A DNA stretch of 64,000 nucleotides from Pseudobdellovibrionaceae bacterium (GTDB lineage Bacteria > Bdellovibrionota > Bdellovibrionia > Bdellovibrionales > Bdellovibrionaceae), in NCBI GenBank assembly GCA_947449255.1, contig CANFQX010000001.1, positions 248,001 to 312,000 of the forward strand, written 5' to 3'. Both the position numbers and the translations under genes were made by a program. Shown here one piece after another: positions 26,047 through 35,956 of this stretch. Position 1 is the first letter of the stretch. Every line of letters starts with the position of its first letter. The notes under the pieces were generated by a model, which worked only from the letters and a program-made list of their open reading frames with translations, was not told the DNA's origin and ran no database searches.

Positions 26047-26658
26047 ATGAGCCTCAATAAAAGCATCCTGAACAAACAATCCCTTTTCGCCGCTTTGGAT
26101 GAGCTGGCAACTCAGGGCTGGTCTGAGGCTCATGAAATATTTCCGTTGGATTATTGTGCCGGCCTTGCCCAAGAGTGTCAAAAATTGCATGCAGCTGGAA
26201 AAATGGACAAATCTGCTATTGGACGCGGAATCTCAAAATCAATTGAAAGTAAAATCCGCGGGGATGATATTTTTTGGCTCGACAATCATCCTTTTTTTGA
26301 AAATTTAGATTTTATGCTGCAGGCCTTAAATGAATCCTTTTTTTTGGGCCTAAAACAATTTGAAGCTCATTTTGCCTTCTATCCACCTGGTGCTGGGTAT
26401 GAAAAGCATCTTGATAATTCTCGAGGCCAAAATAATCGCAAAATTACCTTTTTACTTTATCTGAATGAAATATGGCAAGAGACAGATGGCGGCAAACTTG
26501 TCCTCTACAATCCTCAAGAGCCCACCAAAATGATTTGTAAGATTGCCCCGAAATTGGGAACATTTATTTTATTTAGAAGTGATTTATTTCCTCATGAGGT
26601 TGAAAAAAGCAGCGCCAATCGCTGCAGTTTGACCGGATGGTTTAGGGACGACAAATAA
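26047..26658 (+). CDS. 2-oxoglutarate/Fe(II)-dependent oxygenase (prolyl-hydroxylase-like)
   Basis: A 203-residue soluble enzyme with the double-stranded beta-helix iron site His121 and Asp123 (YEKHLDNS), distal His183 (FPHEV), and Arg192 for 2-oxoglutarate. The HxD motif is followed by KITFLLYLNEIW and DGGKLVLYN, typical of the prolyl 4-hydroxylase/EGL-like branch. These enzymes hydroxylate protein or small-molecule substrates. AAGGAA precedes the ATG. Its stop codon overlaps the start of the ABC subunit (TAATG), so the three genes form one operon. Confidence 0.88.
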   Translation: MSLNKSILNKQSLFAALDELATQGWSEAHEIFPLDYCAGLAQECQKLHAAGKMDKSAIGRGISKSIESKIRGDDIFWLDNHPFFENLDFMLQALNESFFLGLKQFEAHFAFYPPGAGYEKHLDNSRGQNNRKITFLLYLNEIWQETDGGKLVLYNPQEPTKMICKIAPKLGTFILFRSDLFPHEVEKSSANRCSLTGWFRDDK

Positions 26659-28454
26659 TGAGATCATTGTTTAAGGAAGTTATTTACACTCGCTTTTACG
26701 CGCGAATTTTTATTTTGCTGTCCTCTTTTTGTTCAGCACTCTTTGGCCTGTTTGGCCCTTTTTTTCAAAAGGAGTACGTGGACCGTTTGACTGGCGTCCA
26801 AGGAAAGATCTCTGTTCTGGCCCATTTCCCCCCAGAGACCTCGCCGCTATGGCTCATTTTGTCTGCTTTTTTTTGTATCTTAGTGGCTCAAGCCTTTATT
26901 CAAATGACGAATTACCTGGGTACTCGAGAGGCTCTGGTCTTGCAGCGCATTTTTGCAGAACGTTTATATAAAAAAACTTTGAACATGCAGGTCGATACAA
27001 TGAGCCACCGTCCCGTCGGAGAAATTGTCTCCTTGTATGCCACGGATGTTCAAGGTGCCACTGTCTTTTTAGATCAAACTCTGCCCGCTGGAGCCTCCAC
27101 ATTGTTCCCGCTTCTACTAGCACCCTTTGCTATCTCCTTGCTGTTTGAGATTCCTATTTGGCCCACGGTCCTTATCATGAGTCTGATGACAGCTTTGAAT
27201 ACCTTGATGGGCCTGCGCCAGTCGAAATTTTTTTATCAATTTAAACAATTGGCAGCGGAGCGGATCGGACTTGTTAATGAATGGATTCAAAATATTCGCA
27301 CCTTAAGAATTCTAGGTTGGACACAATATTTCGAAAAAAATATTTTTGAAAAAAGGGAAATCGAAACAAAAAATCGAGTTCAGATGGTCACCAATGGTCA
27401 AGTGATGAACTCCCTTTCCTCGAGCGTCACCTTTATTTTGAATATTATAGCGCTTGGAACTTTAGTCATCTATTCAAAAAACAAGATCACTGGAGGAGAG
27501 CTCTTTGCCCTCCTCTGGATTGTTGGAGTTTTTTTAACCAGGCCCTTTCGCCAAATGCCTTGGTTTTTTACTTTTGCCTTTGATTCGTGGACATCGCTGC
27601 AGCGTCTTGAAAAATATTTTGCCATTGAAAACAATCAAACCATTAAAGAACTGGCCGAAGAGAAAACGACAACTCAACCCACTCCAGATGAACGGTACGC
27701 CCTTCAAGTTCGAGGATTAAATTTAATGATCAGCAACCGACAAATTTTAAAAAACATCAATCTGGATGTTTTGCATGGCGAATTTGTTGCTATTGTCGGC
27801 GAAGTTGGCTCTGGAAAGTCAATGCTGCTGCTCTCCTTATTGAAAGAAACAGGGGCACAGTTTGATTTTTATCATATTGGCGCAATTGATGCCCAAACAC
27901 TCACTGCTGACAAAGTGCGAGAAAACTTTGCCTATGTTCCTCAAGAGGGATTTATTATGAGCGCAAGCTTGAGAGAAAACGTAGCCCTGCTCTACGACAT
28001 TGATCCCGACCGCGACCCCATGATTGAAGAGTCTTTAAAATTAGCACAATTTGATTTAAGCACTGAACGAGTTGGTAAGGGCTTGCAAACTGAAATCGGT
28101 GAACGCGGTGTTAATCTTTCGGGTGGGCAACGTCAGCGCGTGAGTCTAGCGCGAGTCCATCTGCACCAAGCCCCTATCTTGTTGCTTGATGATTGCCTCA
28201 GTGCCGTCGATGTGGATACAGAGCAAAAACTTTTTGACCAACTTTTAATAGGAGCTTGGGAAAATCGCACTCGCTTATTGGTCACTCACCGATTGAGTGC
28301 TCTGAGTCGCGTAGATCGCATCGTCTTTATGGAAAATGGCCAAATCATTGCTCAAGGAAGCTTCGAAGAACTTTTAGCTCGCAACGAAAAATTTCGCGAG
28401 TACACCACCACTGTGGCCCAAGTGAAGATTGATCAAGAGGTGATCCGTGGCTAA
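26658..28454 (+). CDS. ABC exporter subunit with degenerate Walker B (ABCC NBD1-like)
   Basis: A membrane domain of six helices (about residues 1-320) joined to an ATPase domain (about 350-590). Walker A GEVGSGKS at 381-388; signature LSGGQ at 487-491; Walker B ILLLDD at 507-512, in which the catalytic Glu is replaced by Asp512; H-loop His in VTHRLS near 546. This DD form and the following CLSAVD are characteristic of NBD1 of the eukaryotic-like ABCC (MRP/CFTR) group. It should therefore pair with the next gene, whose ATPase has the canonical Glu. The start overlaps the oxygenase stop, and the end overlaps the next gene by 8 bases. Confidence 0.9.
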   Translation: MRSLFKEVIYTRFYARIFILLSSFCSALFGLFGPFFQKEYVDRLTGVQGKISVLAHFPPETSPLWLILSAFFCILVAQAFIQMTNYLGTREALVLQRIFAERLYKKTLNMQVDTMSHRPVGEIVSLYATDVQGATVFLDQTLPAGASTLFPLLLAPFAISLLFEIPIWPTVLIMSLMTALNTLMGLRQSKFFYQFKQLAAERIGLVNEWIQNIRTLRILGWTQYFEKNIFEKREIETKNRVQMVTNGQVMNSLSSSVTFILNIIALGTLVIYSKNKITGGELFALLWIVGVFLTRPFRQMPWFFTFAFDSWTSLQRLEKYFAIENNQTIKELAEEKTTTQPTPDERYALQVRGLNLMISNRQILKNINLDVLHGEFVAIVGEVGSGKSMLLLSLLKETGAQFDFYHIGAIDAQTLTADKVRENFAYVPQEGFIMSASLRENVALLYDIDPDRDPMIEESLKLAQFDLSTERVGKGLQTEIGERGVNLSGGQRQRVSLARVHLHQAPILLLDDCLSAVDVDTEQKLFDQLLIGAWENRTRLLVTHRLSALSRVDRIVFMENGQIIAQGSFEELLARNEKFREYTTTVAQVKIDQEVIRG

Positions 28455-30330
28455 ATCAAATCGCCCCCTCCGCCCGAAACACCTGCACAAGGAGCAATCC
28501 GAAGCGGAAACCAAGGGAACAGCTCATTATAGTAAAAATATTTATTGGACTATTCTCATGACCTACAGGCCCTTTCTTGGGCAAATTGGATTGTGCCTTT
28601 TTTTAGGTATTTTTGGTCGCGCGTTGCTTTTAGCAAATACAAATATTATTGGCTTCTGGGTGGACAGTTTAGTTGGTAAGTCGACTCCTCTGAATCAAAT
28701 GAGCTCGGTCCAAATTGTTGAACTTTTACTGACTATGACACTTGTTGGTTTTTCTATGACCTTGATTTTTCGGGTTGGCTTTTCTAGGTTGTCGGCCAAA
28801 GCGATTTCCAATTTTTATGATGAAGTCACTTTGCGCACTTCAAGGCTGCCCATGGGATTCTTTGATACGACTCCTGCGGGTCGAATTATCACTCGTTTCT
28901 CAAGTGACTATGGAAATATCTTTCGACTTTTTGGCGGTCCCTTAGCAGAATTTATTTCAATTATATTTGACTTGATCATGATGGTTGTTCTGATTGGCAT
29001 AGCCAATCCCATCTATCTGATCTTTGTGTTTTTTATTGGGCTAGTTAATTTGCTTGTCTATCGGTTAAATCGTGACCACCTTCGTAAAGTGCGCCGTGAT
29101 CTCTCAGCCAGTCGTTCTCCAAGCATTGCTCACTTCGCCGAAACGACTCAAGGAGCCAGCACGATCCGCTCTTTTCGCAGACAAGATTCCTTCATCGAGC
29201 GCTTCGAAGATCTTGACCGCTATTACCTAGGACAAAAACTCTACACCACTCGAGAGATCATTGGCTTTTCTTTTCAAATGAACAGCATGAGTTCCTTGCT
29301 TCTTCTGATCACTGGGGTTGCAGCTTATTTTATGGTTGAAAAAAATTGGGCCAGCATCGGATCCGTGGGAGTCGCCTTTAGCTTCATCGCTCTTTCTGGT
29401 AATACCGTTCAGATGTTCTTTGAGTGGTTGACCCAATTCGAAGAAGCCATGATTGGTGTTGAACGGCTCGATCACTATCTAAGAATGGATATAGAAAAAG
29501 GCAATAAATTGCCTTCAACAGCCCATTTTCAAACGGGACATCCGGTCTATGAGTCTGATGCAGAGCGGAAGCTTTCGCAGCAAAGACTGACAGAGGATGC
29601 AAACGCCTCTGTAGAAATAAAAAACTTGTGGTTTAGATACCGAGAGGACCTTCCCTGGGTTCTCAAAAATCTAAACTTGGAAATAAAAGCAGGGGAACGA
29701 CTGGGGATCGTAGGTCGGACTGGCTCCGGAAAATCCAGCTTGATTCAAGCCTTGTTTTATCTTTATCCCATAGAGAAAGGTGAAATTTCTATTCATGGCC
29801 ATCATCCCCAAATTAATGGTGATGATGCTGGTGCTATCGATCTAAATTTATATCGCAAGGCTATGGCCTTTATCTCTCAAGATCCTATTTTATTTCGCGG
29901 CAGTTTAAGATTCAATTTGGACGTCGAAAATGTCTTTTCAGATGAAAAACTTAGAGCTGTTCTGCAACAAGTTGGGCTTTGGGATTGGGTCGACACACAA
30001 GCCCTTAAGCTCAATATGCCCATCGAAGAAAATGGTAAAAATTTATCATTAGGAGAACGGCAATTGCTCTGCATGGCACGTTGTCTGCTGCAGCAGTCAC
30101 CCATCGTTATTATGGATGAAGCCACAAGCTCTGTCGATCCTAAATCCGAGGAAATTTTGGTGCGAGCCACAGAGGAATTTTTTGCTCACCGAACGCAAAT
30201 TATTATTGCTCATCGACTGTCCACTTTAGCTAAGTGTGACCGCATCTTATGGCTGCAAAATGGGGAGATTTTCGAGCTGGGCCCTACGGATGAAGTTTTG
30301 CCAAGATTTAAAAAAGCTGAGCTTGTTTAA
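28447..30330 (+). CDS. ABC exporter subunit with canonical Walker B (ABCC NBD2-like)
   Basis: A 627-residue partner: membrane domain (about residues 30-345), then an ATPase domain with Walker A GRTGSGKSS, Walker B IVIMDEATSSVD with the catalytic Glu, and H-loop AHRLS. The signature motif is LSLGERQ instead of LSGGQ, as in NBD2 of ABCC proteins. In a heterodimer, this subunit's Glu with the first subunit's intact LSGGQ would form the one active site. The reading frame starts with GTG inside the previous gene. Export substrate unknown; one that an upstream hydroxylase acts on is an inference only. Confidence 0.9.
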   Translation: MAKSNRPLRPKHLHKEQSEAETKGTAHYSKNIYWTILMTYRPFLGQIGLCLFLGIFGRALLLANTNIIGFWVDSLVGKSTPLNQMSSVQIVELLLTMTLVGFSMTLIFRVGFSRLSAKAISNFYDEVTLRTSRLPMGFFDTTPAGRIITRFSSDYGNIFRLFGGPLAEFISIIFDLIMMVVLIGIANPIYLIFVFFIGLVNLLVYRLNRDHLRKVRRDLSASRSPSIAHFAETTQGASTIRSFRRQDSFIERFEDLDRYYLGQKLYTTREIIGFSFQMNSMSSLLLLITGVAAYFMVEKNWASIGSVGVAFSFIALSGNTVQMFFEWLTQFEEAMIGVERLDHYLRMDIEKGNKLPSTAHFQTGHPVYESDAERKLSQQRLTEDANASVEIKNLWFRYREDLPWVLKNLNLEIKAGERLGIVGRTGSGKSSLIQALFYLYPIEKGEISIHGHHPQINGDDAGAIDLNLYRKAMAFISQDPILFRGSLRFNLDVENVFSDEKLRAVLQQVGLWDWVDTQALKLNMPIEENGKNLSLGERQLLCMARCLLQQSPIVIMDEATSSVDPKSEEILVRATEEFFAHRTQIIIAHRLSTLAKCDRILWLQNGEIFELGPTDEVLPRFKKAELV

Positions 30331-30349: not shown

Positions 30350-32311
30350 TTAGTTTTTCGAGGGACTCCCAAAGGTTTGGACCCATTGTTGAATCATCGC
30401 TAATGTTCCCTTGCGGGCATTGGCGAACTTAACTCCATAAGCTTGATTGCTTGAATTCCATACAATTTGCCCTTGCACTTCGATCCTCTCACGACCATCA
30501 GGACTTGCAATTTGCATGGTCACAATTCCACCATTTTCGAGGGCTTGGTCTGTGCTAAAGGAAACTCCTCCTAAAGATATTGACCTCATGGAGCCCACAA
30601 TTTCCCGATCACCCATTTTTACGCGGATCTCTGAGTTCAAGTGGAAACGCTCATGACTGCGATGATCTTTGTGGCTGCGTCTTCGTAGGGCGAACCAGAC
30701 AATCATGGGGAGCAACATCAGTCCACCGACGACACCACCAGTAGGATTGGAACCACAGCGGCCAGGACCTTGATGAATTACATTTGTGATCAACCCACAT
30801 CCTCCAACACTGGTGCTGGTGCCCGAAGTCGTGTCACTAGCTGGCGTACGATACTGAGCCGCATAATTCGGTTGAAAGCTAGAAATATTGCTGCCTGCGG
30901 ATCCAAGGGCCGCCCCCACCAAGTTGGAGGTATTGACTCTGCCATTAGAAGACACATAAGCGCTCAATGCGGGAATGACATCGACACTGCTGATCAGCAT
31001 TTGCTTGATTTGATATCCGGTCAATGCAGAATTTTCTCTCCACGCCATTGCCGCAATACCACTCACAAAGGGAGCCGCCATACTGGTGCCACTCATATAG
31101 GCATATTTATTTCCAGGAACTGAACTCAAGACGTACTCACCAGGGCTAGCCAATTGAACAGAAGATCGACCATAATTTGAAAAGCCCGACAAGACATCAT
31201 AGGTCGACGTCGAGGCCACGGAGACGTTGCTTGGAACATCATAATTGGCTGGATACATCGGTGTTGAGTCATTGTTTGAACGATAATTCCCAGAAGCTGA
31301 AACAACAAGAACGGCATTGTTGTAGGCGTATGTTAAAGCCTCATGCAGAGCTCTAGAATAAGTTGGGCCTCCCCAAGAGTTATTGATAACTTGCGCCCCT
31401 TTATTGACCGCATAATAGATGGCATTGATGGCCGAAGACGTTGTTCCTGATCCATCTATACCTAAAAATTTTAAAGGCATAATTTGAATTTTTGATTCTT
31501 GCAAAGGACGAGCAAAAATATTTTGCCCCGCGCCAACAATGATGCCAGCAACATGGGTCCCATGACTTTCATCATCAAAAAAATTTGCCGTGTTGTTATT
31601 AAAATTCCAACCATTCACATCATCAACAAAGCCATTTTGGTCATCATCCACACCCGGCAAACCGGCAGCTTCGGCAGCATTGACCCACAAGGCCCCAGCG
31701 CCACCACTGGCCGTGGGCTGAAATAAGATATGACTGGAATCAAGCCCTGTATCCACAACGGCCACAATGACCTTGCCCTTAGCAGCTATATTCGACTCAA
31801 GGCTCCAAGAGCGCTGAACATCGTTGCCTAAGTTATTTTGATAAAATCCATTGTCAGCATAAGCGTCCCTATTTGTGATGATTTCCTGATAACTGTAAGA
31901 ACTTAAAGCGATACCTGCGGAAGCACTTGGATCAGCAGCTGCACTCTTGTACCAGCGGTAGTTGGGCTCCACAAATTCGACATCTGGATCATTTTTAAGA
32001 TCTTCAATATTGGCCACAGAATTGGCAGCCCCTGCTTTCACAGAAACGTGGTACATACCCATTTCTGGATAGGCTTTGCGCATCGTTGACCTGGCGGCAA
32101 GCTTAGTGCGCTGCGAGCGAACATTAACACCCGTGGAATTCTTATATTTGACTATGTATTCGCCTTGAACAACTTCCGGAGCCTGCCCGACTTGCGCCTT
32201 GGCTACTGAAATTCCAAAAACCAGATGCAAGGCCAAGAGGCCCCAAGGGCATGTGGCAAAAATGGATCCTAAATTTGAGTTCAGCACCAATGCCGATGAT
32301 CTCCGATTCAA
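30350..32311 (-). CDS. Subtilisin-family serine protease with TM segment and C-terminal PilZ domain
   Basis: Start taken at TTG 32311, because AAAGGAG lies 5 bases upstream and a signal peptide follows at once; the frame is open 27 codons further, with no ribosome binding site. Numbering from this start: inhibitor-like prodomain (about 45-120), S8 catalytic domain with Asp187, His250 (SHGTHVAG) and Ser410 (SGTSMAAP). A Gly/Pro linker with paired Cys leads to a membrane helix (about 526-543), a basic cluster (RRRSHKDHR), then a PilZ domain with RxxxR at 551-555 and SISLGG at 577-582. The first residue of the usual D/NxSxxG is Ser. The fusion places c-di-GMP sensing on the cytoplasmic side of an exported protease. 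Confidence 0.88.
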   Translation of the reverse strand: MNRRSSALVLNSNLGSIFATCPWGLLALHLVFGISVAKAQVGQAPEVVQGEYIVKYKNSTGVNVRSQRTKLAARSTMRKAYPEMGMYHVSVKAGAANSVANIEDLKNDPDVEFVEPNYRWYKSAAADPSASAGIALSSYSYQEIITNRDAYADNGFYQNNLGNDVQRSWSLESNIAAKGKVIVAVVDTGLDSSHILFQPTASGGAGALWVNAAEAAGLPGVDDDQNGFVDDVNGWNFNNNTANFFDDESHGTHVAGIIVGAGQNIFARPLQESKIQIMPLKFLGIDGSGTTSSAINAIYYAVNKGAQVINNSWGGPTYSRALHEALTYAYNNAVLVVSASGNYRSNNDSTPMYPANYDVPSNVSVASTSTYDVLSGFSNYGRSSVQLASPGEYVLSSVPGNKYAYMSGTSMAAPFVSGIAAMAWRENSALTGYQIKQMLISSVDVIPALSAYVSSNGRVNTSNLVGAALGSAGSNISSFQPNYAAQYRTPASDTTSGTSTSVGGCGLITNVIHQGPGRCGSNPTGGVVGGLMLLPMIVWFALRRRSHKDHRSHERFHLNSEIRVKMGDREIVGSMRSISLGGVSFSTDQALENGGIVTMQIASPDGRERIEVQGQIVWNSSNQAYGVKFANARKGTLAMIQQWVQTFGSPSKN

Positions 32312-32514
32312 GGGAACTCCTTTAGTGAGTGACCCCCCTCTCATCGGCAGAAAGTCTAGGCTAGTTGAGGGGAAAAGTAAAAAAACCTGCACCGAAGGAC
32401 AGGCCGAAATAATCTCTTTTTGAGACGAGCTAACTCCTTGAAGCTAGACTCAGGAACTGATACTTATGATCCGATAAATAACTGCGTAATATTTCAGAAA
32501 AGAGACTTCTTAGA

Positions 32515-33126
32515 ATGAAACATCTTCAGAAAATTTTCTTGCAAGGTCTGGTAACTTTTCTCCCCATTGCTCTGACCATTTATATCGTCTATGCCGGTAT
32601 TTCTATCGTGGACCGCATCTTGGGCGACACACTTCGACTGCTAATGCCAGTTTATATTCCGGGTCTTGGCTTTTTATTGACCATCCTGGTGATCTTTCTC
32701 TTGGGCTTTGTGCTGAACAACCTGATTGCCGTTGGGGCCTTTAAAAAAATTGAAAAAAACCTCATGAAGGTTCCGTTTATCAAAGCCATTTACTCGCCAC
32801 TGCGAGATCTGATGAACCTTTTTTCAAAAGGTGGCAGTCCTGGCAATTTAAGAACAGTGGTGTTAGCAGACCTTGGGGAAACGGGCATCCGAGCACTGGG
32901 CGTAGTCACTCGTGAAAATTTCAATGACATTCCTGCCATAGAAAAACACGCCAGCGACCGCGTAGCCGTTTATATCCCGCTAAGTTATGGCTTAGGGGGC
33001 TTCACTTTAATGATTCCAAGTTCAAAAGTAACTCCCATTGATATGCCGATAGAAAAAGCGATGAGCCTTGCCATCACTGGATGGGTTAAAACAGAACAAG
33101 ATGATCACGAGAAAAAGGATAAATAG
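32515..33126 (+). CDS. DUF502 family membrane protein
   Basis: A 203-residue inner-membrane protein. Two hydrophobic segments (FLPIALTIYIVYAGISIV near 15-33 and GLGFLLTILVIFLLGFVLNNL near 52-72) precede the conserved IEKNLMKVPFIKAIYSPLRDLMN block, and a soluble tail with ETGIRALGVVTREN. This is the DUF502 pattern; family function is not established. The next gene begins right after its stop. Confidence 0.85.
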   Translation: MKHLQKIFLQGLVTFLPIALTIYIVYAGISIVDRILGDTLRLLMPVYIPGLGFLLTILVIFLLGFVLNNLIAVGAFKKIEKNLMKVPFIKAIYSPLRDLMNLFSKGGSPGNLRTVVLADLGETGIRALGVVTRENFNDIPAIEKHASDRVAVYIPLSYGLGGFTLMIPSSKVTPIDMPIEKAMSLAITGWVKTEQDDHEKKDK

Positions 33127-34539
33127 ATGCAAGACAGCTCGCACTTAGAATCCACTATGAGCAAAGCCCTTTTCATCAACCAAGATCTTTCTCGCTACGG
33201 AGCTTTTGCTGAGATCGGCGCTGGACAAGAAGTGGCTCGACACTTCTTTCAGGCAGGTCAAGCTTCACAGACCATCGCTAAAACAATCTCTGCCTATGAC
33301 ATGGTCGTCAGTGATGATATTTATGGGAAAGAGCCAACGGGTCGCTATGTCTGCGAGTCGCGAGTGCTTAAAATGCTGTCTCATGAATACTCTCTTTTAA
33401 TTGATCGCTTAACAGTCCCACGCGGATCCCATTCTCGTTTTTTTGCTTTTGCAAACACAGTCGCGACCGCTTCGGCTTCAAATTCCAAGCAATCCCACGG
33501 CTGGATGGGAGTTCGTTTTCAATCTGAACCTGGAGCCGAGCCCAATGATATCATCCTTCATGTGCGCATGTTAGATCGCTATCGTTTGCAGCAACAAGAA
33601 GCCTTAGGAATTCTTGGTGTCAATCTGCTGAACTGCGCTTTCTATCATCTCAATGATATGCAAGGCTTCATCCCTAGTCTGATTGAGTGCCTCAAAGAGG
33701 GGCAAATTGTTATTGATGTTATTAAATTTCAGGGCCCCGATGTTCAACACTTTAACAATCGACTGATGAATCTTGAATTGGTTCGTCGCGGCCTGGCTGA
33801 AGCCATTTTATTTTCTCCACAAAATGAAATTCTAAATGTTGCTGATGCCATTTATGGAAAGTCCTTACTTATTCAACGGGGGTCCTTTCGTCCCGTCACG
33901 GTCACTCACTTGGATGTATTAAAAAAAGGCTTAGTCCAAATGCGCGCTGATATTCTAAAATCAGAGCACAAAGAAATCGACGTCTTGCCCGTGATGGAAT
34001 TGACCATGCACAATTTAGAAACGGATGGTCATATTGCAGAAAAGGATTTCCTCGACCGTGTGGAAATGCTCACGGCACTAGGCATCCATGTCCTGATTTC
34101 TAATTTCTTTTTATTTTATCGATTAAAGCGCTTTATTCGCCGCTACAATCCCCATTTTATGGCTATGGTGATCGGCGCAAGTCATTTAGAAAATCTTTTT
34201 ATGGAAAAGCACTATCAAGATTTAGAAGGTGGATTGCTTGAAGGGCTGGGAAAGCTTCTAGAGAAAAAAACGAAACTCTATATTTACCCACACAAAACAC
34301 CGCTGATTTGTCTGACAACGAAAAGTTTTTTTCCAGATCCTCATTTAAAACATATTTATTCTTATTTTATTGAAAACGAACAGATTGTGGATATTTCGGG
34401 CTGCGATGAAATTTCTGAATATTTGCACTCCAGTGATGTCATGAGCCTGCTCGAAAAGCAGGACCCTCTGTGGGAGAAACTGGTTCCCCCGCAGGTCAAA
34501 GAGCTTATTAAAAACAACAAACTCTTTGGATATAAATAG
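33127..34539 (+). CDS. Conserved protein of unknown function
   Basis: A 470-residue cytoplasmic protein. Widespread homologues share the strongly conserved segments SKALFINQDLSRYGAFAEIGAGQEVARHFF near the N-terminus and HGWMGVRF, FHVRMLD-like DIILHVRMLDR and EALGILGVNLLNCAFYH. Some databases label this family as TonB-dependent receptor, but there is no signal peptide, plug or barrel, so that name is wrong here. The glycine-rich GAGQE segment suggests nucleotide or sugar-nucleotide binding, which is unproven. The start ATG at 33127 follows the DUF502 stop directly with AAGGAT upstream; an ATG 10 codons later is possible. Confidence 0.6.
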   Translation: MQDSSHLESTMSKALFINQDLSRYGAFAEIGAGQEVARHFFQAGQASQTIAKTISAYDMVVSDDIYGKEPTGRYVCESRVLKMLSHEYSLLIDRLTVPRGSHSRFFAFANTVATASASNSKQSHGWMGVRFQSEPGAEPNDIILHVRMLDRYRLQQQEALGILGVNLLNCAFYHLNDMQGFIPSLIECLKEGQIVIDVIKFQGPDVQHFNNRLMNLELVRRGLAEAILFSPQNEILNVADAIYGKSLLIQRGSFRPVTVTHLDVLKKGLVQMRADILKSEHKEIDVLPVMELTMHNLETDGHIAEKDFLDRVEMLTALGIHVLISNFFLFYRLKRFIRRYNPHFMAMVIGASHLENLFMEKHYQDLEGGLLEGLGKLLEKKTKLYIYPHKTPLICLTTKSFFPDPHLKHIYSYFIENEQIVDISGCDEISEYLHSSDVMSLLEKQDPLWEKLVPPQVKELIKNNKLFGYK

Positions 34540-34645: not shown

Positions 34646-35956
34646 TTAAGAGTTCGATATTCTTTTAGATCTCTCGCTGAGCAATTCAAGAAAACTGCTT
34701 TTCAAATTTGCCGACAAAAAACTTTTTTCAATAAGATTTTCACTTTCAAAGAAAAGATCCAGCATTTTATCGCGCGCATTTTCCAAGATCTTTTTGTTGA
34801 GCTTTAAATTTTCTCCCAAAGCTAAGAAATCAGACCACTTTATTTTATTTTTTCGACCATTAAGCGGAAGAGCCAGCTCTTCCGAGTCCTCAGAGGATGG
34901 TATAAGTAAGCGAGTGTTTAAGAAGTCATATCCTGGACTCATACGGATGCGGCCTCCGCGAGGATCTCTCCATAAGGAGAAATTTTTGAGATGCATATCT
35001 GCATTTCCGATTAAAAAGGAAAAAAGCAAAATTTGAAAAAGCGTGAGTTTGTCGTCCTGAGGTTGTTCTGAATATTTGTCAATAATCTTACCCATGGCCT
35101 CGCTGGATCCGGTGTATTTCTGCGCAGTGCTTTTTTCTGAAAGCTGACAAAAATCCTCAACCTGTATTTTCTCACCATCTTGGCGGTCAAAGCGCTTTGT
35201 TATATAAGCCTTTTCGCCACTAGCTAGATAAATAAGACCACATTGAGCGACAGGAATTTCATGCAATTCAGCGAGTTTCATGCATAAGTGCTCATTCTCT
35301 GCCATCTCAGGATATTCATCGGAGGAAGGTTTCAGGATGAAGCGTCCGTCCAAACCCACAACAGTAAGTCGTTCTTTTTTGTTTTCAATGACCGAACCTA
35401 GTGAAAGTTTTTTTTGAACTCCAGTCAGGGTCATTCTTTGGTTAATTTGCAACAATGCTAAATTTTCAATGTCATCCATAGAGATGTCTATGAAAGGAGA
35501 ATGCGAAAAGCCAAAAGTCTTTTTTGCGCATTTCTGATGATAGGTGTCTACCCCCATCGGCAAGACCTCCATACAGACCAAACATTGGGTGGAATGAAAA
35601 TCATGCTGTCGTGGTTGCACAAATTTTTGTACTCCAGAAATATCTGAATAGTCCTGAGTTTCATCTGAAATATGGACGGCTCCAATACAATCTAAGCCTG
35701 TTGACAAAAGAAGCGCCATGCGATCATTTCTTTGAATTTTCCAATTTTTCTCAAGCAGGTTTAAGAGCCAACCCTCAGGAATGAGGCCATCAAAAAATGG
35801 AAATAGACTAGAAGAATGGTAGGTTTGACGGCTATTGGGAAGCGTCCAGCTCACGGATTGGCCATCGTTTTGATATTTGAACTCGAAGGAGCCATCGACT
35901 TTTTTTTCTATTTTTCCAGACGCCTTATTTTTAAAGTAAACATTTCCTATACTCAT
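34646..35956 (-). CDS. hipA: HipA-family toxin kinase
   Basis: Serine/threonine kinase toxin of a type II toxin-antitoxin pair. The N-terminal subdomain (FDGLIPEGWLL) is followed by a four-ligand zinc-finger-like insert (Cys125, Cys128, His140, Cys143), then the phosphorylated-loop region LTGVQKKLSL, the ATP-site TKRFDRQ, the catalytic GNADMHLKNFS (DxHxKN), and the YDFLNTRL metal-binding Asp. Known HipA kinases phosphorylate glutamyl-tRNA synthetase; the target here is unknown. It overlaps the antitoxin gene by 4 bases (ATGA), so the two are made together. Confidence 0.9.
   Translation of the reverse strand: MSIGNVYFKNKASGKIEKKVDGSFEFKYQNDGQSVSWTLPNSRQTYHSSSLFPFFDGLIPEGWLLNLLEKNWKIQRNDRMALLLSTGLDCIGAVHISDETQDYSDISGVQKFVQPRQHDFHSTQCLVCMEVLPMGVDTYHQKCAKKTFGFSHSPFIDISMDDIENLALLQINQRMTLTGVQKKLSLGSVIENKKERLTVVGLDGRFILKPSSDEYPEMAENEHLCMKLAELHEIPVAQCGLIYLASGEKAYITKRFDRQDGEKIQVEDFCQLSEKSTAQKYTGSSEAMGKIIDKYSEQPQDDKLTLFQILLFSFLIGNADMHLKNFSLWRDPRGGRIRMSPGYDFLNTRLLIPSSEDSEELALPLNGRKNKIKWSDFLALGENLKLNKKILENARDKMLDLFFESENLIEKSFLSANLKSSFLELLSERSKRISNS

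Follow-up and report, generated by a model that had tools for sequence, protein, structure and literature searches.

Can a signal inside a bacterial cell control a protease outside it through a single polypeptide chain? This question was raised by a gene on the minus strand at 30350..32311 of the window, the whole 64,000-nucleotide stretch of Pseudobdellovibrionaceae DNA analysed here, which belongs to a genome of 3.2 Mb. The first-pass annotation had described the product as a subtilisin-type protease joined through a membrane helix to a PilZ domain and had proposed an inside-out switch driven by c-di-GMP. The gene, its coordinates, and its strand had been given correctly. The TTG start at 32311 aligned with the GTG starts of the orthologues in relatives, a ribosome-binding site (AAGGAG, minus strand, 32317..32322) was located upstream, and the reading frame, with its stop codon at 30350-30352, encodes a protein of 653 aa. 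All features of this gene given below are on the minus strand.

The protein begins with a predicted signal peptide (residues 1-39, ending in AKA before QV; 32195..32311), as judged from the sequence, its hydropathy, and the aligned signal peptides of relatives. A Fervidolysin_NPro-like prodomain follows (31961..32194; Pfam, residues 39-117, 6.4e-7). The subtilisin-type S8 catalytic domain (30962..31774) matched Pfam Peptidase_S8 (PF00082) over residues 180-450 at 1.7e-49, and deseasin MCP-01 was the nearest solved structure. The Asp-His-Ser triad was intact, as had been noted at first, and was accompanied by the oxyanion Asn; the residues concerned (D187, H250, N342, and S410) were invariant in 92/92 aligned homologues.

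Between the S8 domain and the membrane, the Gly-rich linker described earlier was present. The only strongly hydrophobic segment was a helix at about residues 525-542 (30686..30739) with a conserved proline, Pro535, followed by the Arg cluster R543-R545 (RRR, positive-inside; 30677..30685), and the earlier description of one helix and then an Arg cluster was confirmed. Behind the helix, 85 of 89 homologues had a net charge of +2 or more, and the sequence in front of it was close to neutral. This positive bias predicts that the PilZ domain is inside and the protease outside. The signal peptide, the single helix, and the charge bias all agree with the orientation proposed in the first-pass annotation, and we infer that the protein consists of an exported protease and a cytoplasmic PilZ domain.

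Whether the C-terminal domain is a genuine PilZ domain had been left to a profile search, an empty result of which was to count against the assignment. The search gave a clear match for residues 550-644 (30380..30664; Pfam, 4.1e-16), with a score of 59.6 bits against the curated cut-off of 22.5. This was the top of the ten PilZ matches in the genome, and the PilZ profile was also matched in 20/20 relatives. The RxxxR and SxSLGG motifs noticed earlier correspond to R551 and R555, which lie directly behind the Arg cluster (30647..30661), and to S577-I-S-L-G-G582 (30566..30583). In the 84 homologues with a complete tail, the residues R551, R555, G581, G582, G626, and F629 were invariant, and S579 was kept in 82. 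At the D/N position of (D/N)xSxxG, in contrast, the 84 sequences contained T in 50, S in 26, D in 3, C in 3, N in 1, and V in 1. Thus, by sequence, RxxxR of the c-di-GMP-binding PilZ domains was present in 84/84, whereas (D/N)xSxxG retained its S and both G with S or T mostly replacing the canonical D/N; we therefore file the domain as a PilZ domain only and not as a proven c-di-GMP receptor.

The replacement by T or S in 76/84 weakens the case for canonical c-di-GMP binding and would fit a PilZ domain that no longer binds a nucleotide and acts as a protein adaptor siting the protease, for example, at the invasive pole. PilZ proteins without a ligand are known from the XC1028/PilZ type, and the weak sequence matches of the domain included 3dsg and 3cnr, in which PilZ is labelled a 'type IV fimbriae assembly protein'. 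However, PilZ proteins without ligand binding typically lose RxxxR, whereas here both Arg residues and the GG pair were invariant. Furthermore, the best match among the structure profiles was YcgR-like YpfA (5vx6), and VCA0042 and Alg44 also appeared, weakly. We consequently regard the adaptor role as unlikely. AlphaFold models had low confidence and were too poor to use (mean pLDDT 38.7 for the whole protein and 54.6 for the tail).

The dN/dS of the PilZ domain was about 0.01-0.08 in close pairs and mostly equal to or below that of the protease. Such values, far below 1, indicate strong purifying selection on PilZ. Class-wide conservation, the invariant RxxxR and GG, and the very low dN/dS argue, at the level of sequence, that the PilZ domain is functional.

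Using a threshold of E up to 1e-70, homologues were found in 62/66 genomes of the family and in 20/20 genera, usually as a single copy, and in 138/369 genomes of the phylum; close homologues belonged to records of B. bacteriovorus and of other Bdellovibrio, whose genomes lie in the same genus. The full-length form occurred across the class Bdellovibrionia (families f1-f11, including a second order) and was confined to it, and other members of the phylum matched the S8 part only. An assembly artefact or a frameshift fusion is ruled out by the full-length orthologues in many genomes.

On a quick protease tree, an unfinished version in which some branches are long, PilZ-less members were scattered over several unconnected positions within the family. 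They were duplicates in three genomes (G014, G051, and G248) or members from reduced genomes (G221 and G249), and all of them ended just behind the Arg cluster. The simplest reading of these sequences is an ancestral S8-PilZ fusion followed by repeated loss of PilZ. The persistence of such members suggests that the protease can function without PilZ, and several losses of PilZ without loss of the protease might be taken to mean that PilZ is an unselected passenger. Given the 84 aligned full-length orthologues and a dN/dS far below 1, a passenger PilZ or an artefactual join is hardly credible.

In ten genomes checked that lack the S8-PilZ gene, 0-2 GGDEF and 0-1 PilZ genes were found, against 4-7 GGDEF and 7-18 PilZ genes in large genomes keeping the fusion; reduced genomes were intermediate. 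The scarcity of PilZ and GGDEF genes where the S8-PilZ gene is absent fits a role in c-di-GMP signalling and also simple genome reduction, since the two are confounded. Separately, we observed that the reduced Bdellovibrionales genomes G231-G234 and G252-G255 (1.4-2.0 Mb) had no detectable PilZ and 0-2 GGDEF genes, which amounts to a near loss of c-di-GMP signalling.

Comparison of gene neighbourhoods indicated no partner for the protein. Synteny with the S8-PilZ gene, seen in about 40 loci and within the family only, was shown by a divergent DUF502 membrane gene and by the 470-aa gene that follows it, which had no Pfam match (window 32515-34539); in other families, a SurA/PpiD-like gene was located upstream. 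An ABC exporter half-transporter pair at 26658-30330 of the window is convergent with the gene and was kept in some relatives only, and a HipA-like kinase gene (Couple_hipA and HipA_C) is located at 34646-35956.

Subsequently, we consider the tail between the protease and PilZ. The linker had been described as Cys-paired, and this did not hold as a feature of the family. Only C505, in a GGCG motif (30797..30799), was invariant (84/84 aligned); relatives did not conserve C519, and most of them had no further Cys between the prodomain and C505. A structural disulfide linking C505 to C519 is ruled out by the lack of conservation of the latter. C505 lay 12-42 residues before the membrane helix across the family, and the helix proline was kept in 24/24 of a sample.

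The earlier remark that the helix and the Arg cluster resemble a C-terminal sorting signal was borne out in relatives. In other Bdellovibrionales genomes, about two dozen other exported proteins (L143-L146 and L148-L162), with 1-3 per genome, actually end in a tail of GGCG, a Pro-containing helix, and Arg. These were matrixin-type M10 proteases, SCE4755-family LPMO-like proteins, C25/PorU-like giants, another S8 protease, and proteins of about 540 residues that form an unnamed family. In this genome and in HD100, by contrast, a tail profile search gave nothing convincing beyond the S8-PilZ protein, and the S8 paralogues of this genome (L010-L014) had no GGCG-helix-Arg tail; a genome-wide sorting tag in this genome is ruled out, as the S8-PilZ protein is its sole carrier.

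MYXO-CTERM is composed of a signature cysteine, a membrane helix, and an Arg cluster on exported proteins, and its enzyme, myxosortase, belongs to the CPBP superfamily (PMC11980579). The S8-PilZ tail likewise has these three elements. It differs in its long and variable Cys-helix spacer, its conserved helix proline, and its score, 15.2 bits (15.5 in the search of the genome) against the cut-off of 20 for the model TIGR03901, with a match that is not C-terminal; one of the tails in relatives just reached the cut-off (20.6). Unlike MYXO-CTERM proteins, moreover, the protein carries a further domain, PilZ, behind the tag, and the genome has no CPBP enzyme: PF02517 (CPBP, the myxosortase superfamily) gave no match here, in HD100, or in several other tag carriers, and it was not associated with tag carriage (11/24 vs 42/115, p=0.49). 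Myxosortase processing of the tail is thus not supported. Rhomboid as the tag enzyme was uninformative because it was present in all genomes tested. In view of the likeness, the score below the cut-off, and the missing CPBP enzyme, the tail is best described from its sequence as an anchor or sorting signal that resembles MYXO-CTERM but lacks the enzyme known for it, with PilZ following. The GCG tail suggests a Bdellovibrionota C-terminal anchoring or sorting signal that is unnamed by the NCBIfam models searched.

These observations bear on another explanation, in which GGCG, the Pro-containing helix, and the Arg cluster are a processing tag. An intramembrane protease would cleave within the helix or close to it, possibly following lipidation of the cysteine, and the S8 protease would be freed to the envelope surface; binding of c-di-GMP to PilZ would allow or prevent this cleavage. 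The occurrence of the tail at the C-terminus of unrelated signal-peptide proteins, the one such tail that reaches the MYXO-CTERM cut-off, the conservation of C505 and Pro535, and the PilZ-less members that stop just behind the Arg cluster are consistent with such processing, while the long, variable spacer with the low score of the S8-PilZ protein, the absence of PF02517 here and in HD100 and its lack of association with tag carriers, and the single tagged protein in each of these two genomes speak against it. We consider it rather unlikely. The specific form in which c-di-GMP on PilZ decides the processing of a cysteine-marked tripartite C-terminal tag and thereby gates the release of a surface protease seems improbable; if true, it would amount to C-terminal sorting under the control of a signal, carried out by an enzyme from outside CPBP.

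When the protein would be used was indicated by its promoter region. The upstream regions of 47 family members were scanned with the pattern TNAAN-N16-CCGA(A/T), allowing a spacer of 15-17, and a FliA-like box was found in 27, against 0.23 expected. The predicted FliA (sigma28)-like box of this gene is TCAAC-N16-CCGATG (32341..32369), and the published FliA attack-phase consensus of Bdellovibrio is TTAAG-N16-CCGATA. An extra conserved GACTT was also observed between the -35 and -10 elements of the box. In the genome presumed to be HD100, 18 PilZ matches were obtained, in agreement with the published number. Judged by gene spacing, Bd2545 is very probably the orthologue in HD100. The HD100 PilZ genes at 2430859 and 2454682 presumably are Bd2524 and Bd2545, which are 21 genes apart. 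A microarray study in 2010 found Bd2524, Bd2545, and Bd3100 to be down-regulated on leaving attack phase. The FliA-like box and these data on Bd2545 together make it very probable that the S8-PilZ gene belongs to attack phase.

Taken together, these findings lead us to regard as probable that the protein is an anchored periplasmic subtilase of Bdellovibrionia that c-di-GMP controls from across the inner membrane. Sec would export the protease in a type I topology, removal of the prodomain would activate it, and the one helix, within the cysteine-marked, proline-containing tail, would anchor it to the inner membrane. On the cytoplasmic side, the PilZ domain would sense c-di-GMP, or a cyclic dinucleotide related to it, and relay its state via the helix. 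In known complexes (VCA0042 and BcsA), PilZ clamps c-di-GMP with the RxxxR loop. Because this loop directly links the helix to the PilZ barrel, and lies right behind the Arg cluster, it appears placed to transmit binding to the helix; clamping of the ligand would shift the helix position or the oligomer state and, in turn, protease activity, clustering, or release. The switch would operate during attack phase, in which expression of the gene is expected and most diguanylate cyclases are made, so that a signal within the cell could govern a protease outside it while prey are attacked. The inside-out switch of the first-pass annotation is therefore partly supported: its topology and its PilZ-based link fit the sequence evidence.

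The architecture itself has been catalogued. A survey in 2008 (Tripathi and Sowdhamini, PMC2605481) contains 'Subt-PilZ' NP_969350.1 in B. bacteriovorus, labelled 'Signalling'; this has the same architecture and is almost certainly the HD100 orthologue, probably Bd2545. The survey's passages on Subt-PilZ give the domain pair without topology, tail, conservation, or regulation. No functional work on Subt-PilZ was found in the literature searched, the scope of which did not include the main c-di-GMP network paper, and the class-wide conservation, selection, Cys/Pro tail, and promoter were not described in that literature.

The protein would unite an exported protease with a receptor of the c-di-GMP type in a single chain, and this in bacteria with c-di-GMP-dependent prey entry. 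Prey entry of Bdellovibrio depends on c-di-GMP (DgcB), and, to our knowledge, most of its PilZ proteins have no assigned output. The output of the S8-PilZ protein, proteolysis, is measurable, and hence the link between the second messenger and prey invasion is directly testable. Alg44, a component of alginate export, has an N-terminal PilZ domain, one membrane helix, and a periplasmic domain. It is alike in that a cytoplasmic PilZ is joined via one helix to a periplasmic domain, with c-di-GMP inside and the effect outside, whereas in the S8-PilZ protein the PilZ domain is C-terminal and the outside part is an enzyme. LapD-LapG, which consists of a degenerate EAL receptor and a separate cysteine protease, shares no domain with the S8-PilZ protein but is alike in outcome, as proposed here for the latter: cytoplasmic c-di-GMP controls periplasmic proteolysis.
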